From Calditrichota bacterium (GTDB lineage: Bacteria; Electryoneota; Electryoneia; Electryoneales; Electryoneaceae), in assembly GCA_018263585.1 (NCBI GenBank), contig JAANWZ010000088.1, positions 1 to 47,107 on the forward strand: a stretch of DNA of 47,107 bases. The letters run 5' to 3'. Within the stretch, counting starts at the first letter, position 1, and the number at the start of each line of letters is the position of its first letter. This document shows positions 20,418 through 47,046 of this stretch, in pieces. The translations under genes and the position numbers were made by a program. Below the pieces are notes generated by a model. The model did not search any database. It was not told the origin of the DNA and saw only the letters and a list, made by a program, of their open reading frames with translations.

Positions 20418-22715
20418 TCAGCGTGCGCCGGCGGGCGACTCGTGCCGGAACGCGACCCGCAGCGACCACGTCCGGCCCGGCATCGGCATCCGCTCGAGCA
20501 ATTCGTAGCGCACGCCGGTCACATTTTCCACTGCGGCGGACAGCGCGATCGTCGGGCCCGGCGAAGCGAGCGAGAGCTCCCGCCGCAGCCGGAGGTCGAG
20601 CGTCGCGTACGAATCGAGCGCGGCCCCGGCGGCGCTGTACGGGTCCAGATTCGACTCGCGGCTGAACCGGCGCGAGCACGCGTGCAGCTCCACGGCGACC
20701 GTGGTCGCGCGCTCCGGCGCGAGCTCGAGGAGCACGCTCGCGAACCGGTCGGGTTGGAACGGGATCCGGTTCCCGCGATACGGCGAGCCGGGGGTCGTGT
20801 TCACCGCGCGCTGCCAGGTGAACGAGCCGGCGAGTACGCGCAGCCACGATCGCCCGCGCATGTGCAGCGACATTTCGAGCCCGCGGGCGCCGGCGCGCGC
20901 GAGGTTGTCCGGGAAATACTGCCCGCGCCAGTTGCGCCGCCACACGACGAGGTCGTCCGTCGCGCGCGCAAACGCCCGTGCGGACGCCGACGCGGTCACG
21001 CCCGCCGCCAGCGGCTGTGTGACCGTGACACCGCCCTGCAACTCGCGGATCCGTTCCGGCGCGAGCTCCGGGTTCCCGAGCGCGAACACCGACTCGACGA
21101 GGAACCGGTTCACGAACGACGGCGGCGCGTACGACGACCCCGTGCTCAACTCCGCCGACCAGCGCCCGGCGAGCGGTGACACGCGCACCGCGAGCTGCCC
21201 GCCCGTGTGGTCGCCGCCGCCGGGCGACCACGGCGCGGCGAACGCATCGCGCGCATCACGGTAGCGGTCGTTCCGGATCAACATTTCCGCCCGCCAGCGC
21301 AGGCCGAACCGGCGCGCGGTCGCGTCGAGCCCGGTCTCCACGCCGGCGGCTGCGCGGTGGATCGCGCCGCCGGTGCGGCTCGATGCGCCGGCGCCCGCGC
21401 GGTCGGCGCTGCGGAACCGCTCGAGCGTGAGCTCCGCCGATGCGAGCGCGTCCAGGCTCAATTCGTCACTATGGACGAGCGTGAGCCGGCTGTCGAGGTC
21501 CGCGCCCGCGCGCAGGTCGTCGTCCTCGACATCCGCCGGCGTGTGGCGAACAGTCTGACCGGTAGAGGGATCGGTCTGGTATTCCGGGTTGATGTAGCGC
21601 CGGTGACGGCCGGCGCTGAACAGCCGCAGGCGCAGCGGGGGGCGGGTCGGCGCGCCGGCGTCACTCGCGAACGAAATCTGCGCGCGCCAGCTTGTCTCGT
21701 CGAGGTTCGCCTCCGGCGCCGGCGGCTGATACAGCGGCGCGGGCGAACCGGCGTCCGTCGCATCCAACGCCGCCGCCCAGCGCGCGGTGAGATCGGCGGG
21801 CAGCACGTGTTCGCCGGACGCGTTCACCGACAGCCGTTCGCGCTGGTTGTTGCTCCGGGCGCGGAGCTCGCCGGACTCGTCGATATACTCGAAATCGCCG
21901 CGGGAGTCGAGGAAGCGCGCGTGCGCGGTCACTGTGCCGGACGGTGCGGAACGCGTGACCGAGAGCTCGCCGGCGACCGCGCGCGGGGCTTGCCCGGTCA
22001 CGGAGGCGCGGATCGCGTTCAGGGCGGCGCCGGGCGCGGGCACGGTCGCGATCCGGATCAGTCCGCCGGGCGCGCCGGGACGGGTGCGCGGGTCGATCTC
22101 GATCGAACGGATCGCGTTCGCGGGCAGCGCGCCGAGATCGACCGCCTCGCCCGCGCCGTCGTTGACCGGGACGCCGTCCACCTCCACGCGCACATGATCC
22201 GGCCGCGCTCCGCGCAGGGAGACGGTCTTCCGCGCGCCCGGCCCGCCGCTCTCGCGCACCCGCACGCCCGGCAGGTGACGGATCGCCTCCGCGGCGTCCG
22301 GCCACGCGTGCTCGCGGATCTCGCCGGCGGTGATCGTGTACGGCGCGCGTTCGGCGGGGATCGAATATGACAACGTGTCCGCGACAACCGCCGCCGGTTC
22401 GAGCTCGATCAGGAGACGGATTGTCTCGCCCTCGCGCACGCGGGCCGACCGCCGCGCGGTAGCGTAACCGATGTGACGCACGGCCAGCTCCCGGCGCCCG
22501 GAAGCGAGGTCGGGGAAGGAAAACACGCCGCGCGCGTCGGTCACCGTCATCCGGCGGCCGCTGTCGAGCACGATGTGTGCGCCCGCGAGCGGACGGCTCG
22601 TCTCCACGTCGAGCACGCGCCCCGCGAGCAACACGGGCGCGGGGTCGGCGCGAGTGGAAAACACAACCGATGCGGCGAATAGGGCGGACAGCAGAAGGAC
22701 CGGAATACGGCGCAC
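20418..22715 (-). CDS. TonB-dependent outer-membrane receptor, probably for cobalamin
   Basis: Outer-membrane transporter of about 765 residues. The start is taken as the GTG at 22715 (VRRIPVLLLSALFAASVVF, a signal peptide), because GGGAGG lies eight bases upstream and everything before it is riboswitch. After the signal come a carboxypeptidase-regulatory-like domain (about 27-110; LLAGRVLDVETSRPLAGAHIVL, GVFSFPDLASGRREL), a plug domain (HAWPDAAEAIRHLPGVRV, SLRGARPDHVRVEVDGVPVNDG) and a beta-barrel ending in an aromatic-containing strand (TWSLRVAFRHE). The cobalamin riboswitch directly upstream makes vitamin B12 or a corrinoid the likely substrate; the protein itself does not show this. No btuF, btuC or btuD is in the window. 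Confidence 0.9.
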   Translation of the reverse strand: MRRIPVLLLSALFAASVVFSTRADPAPVLLAGRVLDVETSRPLAGAHIVLDSGRRMTVTDARGVFSFPDLASGRRELAVRHIGYATARRSARVREGETIRLLIELEPAAVVADTLSYSIPAERAPYTITAGEIREHAWPDAAEAIRHLPGVRVRESGGPGARKTVSLRGARPDHVRVEVDGVPVNDGAGEAVDLGALPANAIRSIEIDPRTRPGAPGGLIRIATVPAPGAALNAIRASVTGQAPRAVAGELSVTRSAPSGTVTAHARFLDSRGDFEYIDESGELRARSNNQRERLSVNASGEHVLPADLTARWAAALDATDAGSPAPLYQPPAPEANLDETSWRAQISFASDAGAPTRPPLRLRLFSAGRHRRYINPEYQTDPSTGQTVRHTPADVEDDDLRAGADLDSRLTLVHSDELSLDALASAELTLERFRSADRAGAGASSRTGGAIHRAAAGVETGLDATARRFGLRWRAEMLIRNDRYRDARDAFAAPWSPGGGDHTGGQLAVRVSPLAGRWSAELSTGSSYAPPSFVNRFLVESVFALGNPELAPERIRELQGGVTVTQPLAAGVTASASARAFARATDDLVVWRRNWRGQYFPDNLARAGARGLEMSLHMRGRSWLRVLAGSFTWQRAVNTTPGSPYRGNRIPFQPDRFASVLLELAPERATTVAVELHACSRRFSRESNLDPYSAAGAALDSYATLDLRLRRELSLASPGPTIALSAAVENVTGVRYELLERMPMPGRTWSLRVAFRHESPAGAR

Positions 22716-22760
22716 AAAAAAAACCTCCCGTTTCGTGACGGCGTCCCCGAAACCGGGAGG
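22716..22760 (-). terminator. Riboswitch expression platform: terminator hairpin that includes the ribosome binding site
   Basis: On the minus strand CCTCCCGGTTTCG pairs with CGAAACGGGAGG, a 12-base-pair stem with one bulged G and a 12-base loop, followed directly by eight T and then the GTG start of the TonB receptor gene. The 3' arm (22724-22729 on the plus strand) is GGGAGG, the only good ribosome binding site. The same hairpin can therefore end transcription and hide the ribosome binding site. Confidence 0.85.
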
Positions 22761-22784
22761 GTGGGCGTGCGACAGGGAAGGGCT

Positions 22785-22997
22785 CCGTGCCGGTCCCGTC
22801 TCCCGCAACCCCGGGGAAACCTGGGCCGTACTCGCGGATGCCGGTCTCCGGGCTCGCGCATCGTCCTCCCGCGGCGCCTTCCCGAGCCGGCGACCGGCGC
22901 ATGCCGATCCTCCGCGCCCGGTGGCGTGTTGCCGCGTTTGTCCGCGCTTACCGTGGCGGGGGCCGCTCCCGATTCTCACGGGATTCCCTTCGCATCC
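22785..22997 (-). promoter_or_regulatory. Cobalamin riboswitch
   Basis: The minus-strand leader of the TonB receptor gene carries the conserved blocks of the AdoCbl-type riboswitch in order: GGGAATCCCGTGAGAATC at the 5' end, GAGCGGCCCCCGCCAC (family consensus AGCGGxCCCGCCAC), and then GAGCCCGGAGACCGGC (consensus GAGCCxGGAGACCxGC) near 22838-22856. A TTGACA at 23013-23018 could be the -35 of its promoter, but I see no convincing -10. The downstream limit of the aptamer is approximate. In this family, cobalamin binding switches the downstream gene off. Confidence 0.92.
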
Positions 22998-23079
22998 ACG
23001 AGGGTGATCGCTTGTCAACGGCGGAGCGTGGACCGCCCGCCGGGAAAGGCAAGATACACGGTCGGATCGTCCGCGGCAA

Positions 23080-23460
23080 GCGTTGAGGCGGACGGCTGGC
23101 CCGGGCTTCAGCCTCGGGTCTCATACACGGTCGGATCACACACCCTTGCCCTTGACTTTAGTCAAGGATAATCAAAGGGTTGGTCAGCCAGTCGGGTGGC
23201 CCGGGGCTTCAGCCTCGGGTCTCAGGTCACGCACACCGTCGGATGAACCGCGGTTGCAAGCAACCGCGGGCCTGTCAAGAACGGGGACGCTTGCTCGCAA
23301 GCGTCCCCCTCCACTCACGTGATCTATGCCCCGCGCCTGCTTGCAGGCCGGGTTCTTGTCACGGTGGAATCACCGCCGGATCAGCCGCGCGGCCGAGCCC
23401 GCACGGGCGACACAGATGATGGGTGGCCCGGGGCTTGCCCCGGATTTCACCGGCGGTGGC
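23080..23460. repeat. Dense cluster of P4, P1, P2, P3, P6 and P5 hairpins
   Basis: About 380 bases with no gene, made almost entirely of repeats. In order: P4-type (23098-23120, CCCGGGCTTCAGCCTCGGG with the TCTCATACACGG tail), P1 (23150-23167), P4-type again (23199-23222), P2 (23248-23269), P3 (23283-23308), P6-type CCTGCTTGCAGG (about 23336-23347), a degenerate P5 (about 23388-23412), and P4 (23423-23445). Tails such as GGTCGGATCA recur between hairpins. Confidence 0.9.
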
Positions 23461-25632: not shown

Positions 25633-26043
25633 GGTCCCTCCCTCATTCAGGTCGTGACGGGTGGCCCGGGGCTTCAGCCGCGGGTGTCGTATTTCCGCCT
25701 TCTCCTGTGCCCCGCCCCTGCTCGCAGGCCGGGCTCCTTCGACGGTCATCGGACCGCGACCGAATCCATGCCTGCAAGCAGGCATGGGCATAGGCATGAA
25801 CCCACGCCCGTCACCGTGTCTCGCAGTAAGGCAGCCCGAACTCCCGCCGGAAAGTATAGCACATATCATGCCCGGTGCGCTCACCGCCGCCTTGGACCGC
25901 AGGAGCTCTCTCGTTACCTTGCCGTGCACGTGACGGCGGCCGGGGAAGTGCCGGAGAAACCAGGGTATATGACCATGCGGTTTTGCCTTTGGCTCAGCCA
26001 CGTGCATGGTCCGCAATTCCGACCGCATTTGCGCGGTCCAGGC
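25633..26043. repeat. Spacer with P4 and P6 repeats
   Basis: Upstream of the porin-like gene. A P4-type hairpin (GGGGCTTCAGCCGCGGG, about 25664-25684), a P6-type CCTGCTCGCAGG (about 25719-25730) and a CCTGCAAGCAGG (about 25770-25781) followed by GCATGGGCATAGGCATG are recognised. From about 25800 to 26040 no gene and no repeat is evident. Confidence 0.65.
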
Positions 26044-46970: not shown

Positions 46971-47046
46971 TGAGACCCGAGGCTGAAGCCCCGGGCCACC
47001 CAGCCGTGGATGAGACCCGAGGCTGAAGCCCCGGGCCACCCAGCCG
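46971..47046 (-). repeat. Tandem 40-bp duplication of a reversed P4 unit
   Basis: TGAGACCCGAGGCTGAAGCC with its continuation CCGGGCCACCCAGCCG occurs at 46971-47006 and again at 47011-47046, separated by TGGA. Each contains the P4 hairpin in reverse orientation with the TGAGACC tail seen at 5131 and 23119. The two copies are identical over 36 bases, so the duplication is recent. Confidence 0.9.

Follow-up and report, generated by a model that had tools for sequence, protein, structure and literature searches.

The gene of a TonB-dependent receptor in the window, the stretch of 47,107 nucleotides analysed here, is preceded by a cobalamin riboswitch whose downstream hairpin holds the ribosome binding site (SD) of the gene and is followed directly by eight T and the start codon. 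This leader is proposed to act as an OFF switch repressed by cobalamin, with a dual expression platform in which one hairpin would both lock the SD and end transcription at the T8 tract. The probability of this reading, with SD lock and termination acting together as two parts that are not independent, is put at roughly 0.6. The elements involved are listed below; the names P13, L13 and L5 are used here for parts of the leader.

22822 to 23012, minus strand: cobalamin riboswitch aptamer (RF00174), from cmscan (70.3 bits, gathering cut-off 31.5)
22798 to 22820, minus strand: P13 stem and L13 loop, GTTTCCC CGGGGTTGC GGGAGAC, from the sequence
22800 to 22821, minus strand: 5' half of the predicted antisequestor/antiterminator, from the MFE fold of a transcript ending ahead of the lock 3' arm and from the cognate-pairing test
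22740 to 22759, minus strand: 3' half of the predicted antisequestor/antiterminator (lock 5' arm and hairpin loop), from the same fold and the cognate-pairing test
22748 to 22760, minus strand: 5' arm (anti-SD) of the lock/terminator hairpin, CCTCCCGGTTTCG, from the sequence
22724 to 22735, minus strand: 3' arm of the lock/terminator hairpin, CGAAACGGGAGG, which holds the SD, from the sequence
22724 to 22729, minus strand: SD GGGAGG, the last six nucleotides of the hairpin 3' arm
22716 to 22723, minus strand: T8, candidate U tract and SD-to-start spacer, from the sequence and from T-run and spacer counts
22713 to 22715, minus strand: GTG start codon, directly 3' of T8
20418 to 22715, minus strand: TonB-dependent receptor of 765 amino acids with a GTG start, a signal-peptide-like N-terminus (MRRIPVLLLSALF), and CarboxypepD_reg and Plug domains

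The first-pass annotation had recognized a cobalamin riboswitch in this leader and suggested a covariance-model scan as a check. The scan (cmscan) agreed with that call, returning a match to RF00174 on the minus strand (23012-22822) that covers the full model (positions 1-189) and lies above the gathering cut-off, and a genome-wide scan showed it to be the only RF00174 copy in the 2.85-Mb genome. The outer boundary that had been set at 22997 has to be moved, as the aptamer starts 15 nt farther out, at 23012. Most core blocks of the aptamer are intact, and it is expected to bind its ligand. A promoter scan of the window gave no candidate that passed. Two copies of a dispersed repeat, GGGCTTCAGCCTCGGGTCTC, are found just upstream of the riboswitch; within the window the repeat lies at 23103-23122, 23204-23223, 25669-25688, 46972-46991, and 47012-47031, and around 120 copies (71 forward and 49 reverse, with up to two mismatches) are present genome-wide, against none for the reversed control.

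Around 60 bases downstream of the aptamer, the arms CCTCCCGGTTTCG and CGAAACGGGAGG form the 12-bp hairpin described at first reading, with one bulged G and an additional 3-bp inner helix (-19.9 kcal/mol). The SD (22729-22724) occupies the end of the 3' arm, T8 (22723-22716) abuts the stem, and the GTG (22715-22713) follows at once, so that both the assignment of GGGAGG as ribosome binding site and the immediate succession of stem, T tract, and start codon hold. The distance from hairpin to start is therefore 8 nt. The motif CCTCCC...GGGAGGTTTTT is found once in the genome. A generic terminator scanner with a loop limit of 8 did not include this hairpin, whose stem has a bulge, in its output. 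The GTG start itself agrees with the signal-peptide-like N-terminus and with the relatives; a start codon farther downstream was rejected, since inspection by eye revealed no in-frame start with an SD and such a start would cut the signal peptide.

In DNA this rich in G+C, folding energy is uninformative, and it was discarded as proof of the hairpin (z of -0.25 when the 66-nt piece is folded, 0.12 for the leader as a whole). A lock on the SD also arises in 11 of 150 shuffles of the window upstream DNA, and in 0 to 58 of 150 when other leaders are shuffled in the same manner, which makes this comparison suggestive only. Codon bias was used to select 71 genes with an SD from a 222,110-base sample of this genome; the window lock ranks fourth of these in energy. 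The T tract stands out more sharply: 70 of these 71 genes have an SD-start spacer without any T run above 3, the single exception being the window T8, which is also the only run of at least eight T on either strand of the sampled bases. T8 is thus not an ordinary spacer.

The hairpin with T8 obtains a terminator score of 42.9, by a formula other than the Rnall caller of Barrick & Breaker, and ranks fourth of the 14 hairpin-plus-T sites that score above 10 in the 222-kb sample. At that threshold there is no excess over hairpin-plus-A controls, of which there are 15; above a score of 30 there are six sites with T and no control with A, suggesting that this organism appears to use intrinsic terminators. 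A terminator role is plausible, as T8 follows the stem without a gap and few sites in the sampled genome score higher; intrinsic termination at T8 is considered somewhat probable. The same T8 and score would also fit a pure transcription attenuator, an intrinsic terminator whose overlap with the SD is incidental. This explanation is regarded as very improbable: relatives that lack the T tract keep the SD-pairing arm, which identifies SD pairing as the conserved property.

The comparison with these relatives is what makes the lock convincing. All seven genomes examined of the class Ca. Electryoneia carry the riboswitch, and each has a hairpin ahead of the start codon whose 3' strand includes the SD GGGAGG. 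The arms of each lock match better within than between genomes, with p values for cognate against permuted pairing of 0.0014 for nine sequences and 0.0095 for the seven class members. The larger set adds the f3 loci L039 and L045 to the class members and leaves out the other two of the four f3 loci (L040 and L046), which precede a gene of another type; the seven-member set is free of such choice. An alignment (A1) whose locks MAFFT placed imperfectly was left out of pair counting. A search of genome contigs for further class members gave seven loci, consisting of the same six relatives and one weak Pseudomonas match that was left out. The ribosome-site lock proposed in the first-pass annotation is in this way well supported, and its control by the riboswitch is considered very probable.

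The T tract is far more variable than the lock. Where the window has T8, the spacers of the relatives read TTTTTTC (score 12.4), TTTTTC (20.4), ATTTTTC (4.0, or 27.8 when the A of this G001 leader is skipped), ATTTC (-54.0), ATTC (-17.4), and ATGGATC (-32.0). The score is hence positive in four and negative in three of the seven class genomes, and it is negative as well in both f3 loci examined. Since the lock is present in all seven and the T tract is not constant, the SD lock looks ancestral in the class, and these spacers suggest that a stop signal may have been added to an older ribosome lock.

The same variation can be read in favour of a switch that acts on translation only, with an SD lock as in Escherichia coli btuB and T8 as a drifted homopolymer spacer that does not terminate. 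The constant lock, the short or broken T tracts of several class genomes (ATTC, ATTTC, ATGGATC), the three negative terminator scores, and the 11 loci of another riboswitch family of the phylum (f4), whose common SD hairpin has no T tract behind it, all point in that direction. This reading is nevertheless held to be rather unlikely, given that no other sampled gene has a spacer with a T run above 3, that the T tract joins the stem without a gap, just as it does in intrinsic terminators, and that the two relatives whose receptors are most similar to that of the window have T5 and T6.

Two further riboswitch families were observed alongside the class. In f4 (L041, L047, L052, L055, L065, L067, and L069-L073), a short SD hairpin lies directly behind the riboswitch and the next ORF is a different one, membrane-protein-like. 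Changes in the f4 stem are paired, with 92% of cells paired and 5 of 500 shuffles as high, in a MAFFT alignment with two or more misplaced rows. In f6 (L042, L049, and L059), a terminator-like hairpin is found well upstream of a separate SD, which is the layout of plain transcription attenuation, again within this phylum.

When the leader is folded up to the hairpin loop, with the 3' arm still untranscribed, P13/L13 is predicted to pair with the hairpin 5' arm and loop, and similar pairings between P13/L13 and the lock are found in predicted folds of the other class members. The cognate duplex of the window reaches -32.1 kcal/mol, the second strongest of nine. Each genome's P13/L13 was then paired with every genome's lock, and permuted partners did as well as the cognate ones in 21 of 20,000 permutations when nine sequences were used and in 108 of 20,000 with only the seven class members (0.00065 and 0.00505 in a repeat); these p values are after the fact, as the test was chosen once the predicted folds had been seen. 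An antisequestor pairing with the short lock arm only was rejected, 178 of 300 shuffles of the window upstream segment pairing as well; the signal appeared once the hairpin loop was included and cognate pairs were compared with non-cognate ones by permutation.

Control pairings gave p values, for nine and seven sequences respectively, of 0.47 and 0.37 (P13 with coding sequence), 0.46 and 0.60 (linker with lock), 0.70 and 0.85 (P13 with the 3' arm), and 0.11 and 0.10 (aptamer 5' end with lock), none of which amounts to a signal. The pairing of P13 with the linker (0.068 and 0.0077) counts against full specificity. The earlier account was right about the hairpin lock and missed both this alternative pairing and the published category of dual platforms to which the leader belongs.

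The proposed sequence of events would be as follows. With cobalamin bound, the C-rich loop of the aptamer would hold L13 and keep P13 closed; by sequence, CGGGG in L13 is complementary to CCCCCG in that loop, and CGGGG recurs at the corresponding place in relatives. With P13 closed, the downstream hairpin would form behind RNA polymerase and, together with the U8 tract, end the transcript just ahead of the GTG. Transcripts that escaped would be silent too, the same hairpin holding their SD. Without cobalamin, P13/L13 would open and pair co-transcriptionally with the hairpin 5' arm and loop, so that neither terminator nor lock would form and the receptor would be made. In the full-length ensemble, the lock of the window is favoured at equilibrium by 4.3 kcal/mol and the mean probability of the SD being unpaired is 0.005, which implies that the modelled ON state must be a kinetic one, reached during transcription. 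Such a co-transcriptional ON state suits a terminator-type decision. In three of the nine leaders (G002, G004, and G013), the predicted ensemble leaves the SD mostly open without ligand.

The locus itself appears to have been rearranged. In six relatives (G001-G006) the riboswitch heads an operon with two genes ahead of the receptor, whose product shares 32-47% identity with that of the window; in the window those two genes are absent and the receptor gene directly follows the leader. The start of the window receptor, MRRIPVLLLS, resembles that of the first gene of G005, MRRLPILLLL, and the simplest account would be that leader and receptor gene were fused by a deletion. A 90-aa query with a relative's first gene, a weak test, found no match in the window's own genome. 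In the relatives, the two genes ahead of the receptor appear to encode secreted proteins; in the one relative scanned, PF18962 scored 28.4 bits for ORF1 (cut-off 27) and 20.4, below the cut-off, for ORF2. This receptor is also present in Candidatus Electryonea clarkiae, which places the window in Ca. Electryoneia.

A leader stranded by the loss of upstream operon genes might have degenerated and lost its response to the ligand. The absence of the two genes would agree with this, as would a GCCACTG box that reads GCCACCG in the window and an aptamer score that is the lowest of the seven class members (70.3 against 85.4-110.9 bits). Even so, the score exceeds the cut-off by a wide margin, and the aptamer keeps most core blocks; the lock, P13/L13, and the alternative pairing, whose strength was noted above, are intact. 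Decay of the switch is accordingly given very little credence.

A known system close to the proposed OFF switch is E. coli btuB, described (PMC11162775) as an OFF adenosylcobalamin riboswitch of the outer-membrane B12 receptor. There, the SD is sequestered in a stem-loop and released by an anti-SD/anti-anti-SD helix; transcription termination, mainly Rho-dependent or at a putative attenuator inside the ORF (+18 to +48), also lowers mRNA. The proposed OFF logic, the anti-SD/anti-anti-SD pairing, and the B12-receptor-like gene are common to both, whereas in the window the hairpin with its U tract lies ahead of the start codon.

A hairpin placed as the putative btuB attenuator is in that account was observed in family f2 (L044, L051, L054, L061, L064, L066, and L068). 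These ORFs are riboswitch-controlled and look receptor-like by eye. Within its first 110 nt, inside the reading frame, each has a G+C hairpin with a U run behind it (in L054 only AATTTTG), and the GCG codon of the hairpin 3' arm stands at +36 in six and +42 in one, in frame 0 in all seven. Seven of the nine f2 loci were counted, G007 having a different site and the G023 contig ending too early. Overlapping the signal-peptide codons, this hairpin may be an intrinsic terminator that acts once translation is blocked.

As a tentative scenario, to which we give somewhat less than an even chance, an ancestral translation-only lock could have gained its U tract stepwise (none, ATTTTTC, T5C, T6C, T8) and so become a terminator, with one P13/L13-lock pairing serving as both antisequestor and antiterminator. 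The phylum would then hold at least two geometries joining termination and translation, one with the SD inside a pre-start terminator (window) and one with a terminator around 40 nt inside the reading frame (f2). Dual platforms have been defined by computation, and the added effect of the second layer is a practical question. The six relatives, with apparently the same lock and U tracts from none to six, offer a natural series for the contribution of the U tract to an SD lock, and for asking whether translation-only switches become terminator switches by spacer lengthening.

Compared with known families, the aptamer is a full-length RF00174 member above the gathering cut-off that scores below the other six of the class. 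The receptor shares with BtuB the Plug domain (PF07715, 51.9 bits, above the cut-off of 23.9), and TonB-B12 (TIGR01779) is its best NCBIfam match; unlike BtuB, it scores far below the cut-off of that model (72.5 against 599.7 bits) and has an N-terminal carboxypeptidase-regulatory-like domain. In the portion of a 2025 study considered here (PMC12121620), transcriptionally active cobalamin riboswitches are reported in 10 of the 15 Gram-negative taxa having such loci. The expression platform corresponds to a category described, in the portion of the paper considered, by Barrick & Breaker in 2007 (PMC2258182), where the terminator is so near the gene that the ribosome binding site sits in the 3' side of the hairpin, with at most 10 nt from hairpin to start. 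The window has this arrangement, with 8 nt and its binding site in the 3' side, and a terminator-like hairpin with a U tail downstream of the aptamer according to the score formula used here, not Rnall. It is set apart from the platforms described there by its occurrence in Ca. Electryoneia, where some relatives have the lock without a clear terminator, and it is this graded series of relatives that adds to the known dual-platform category.
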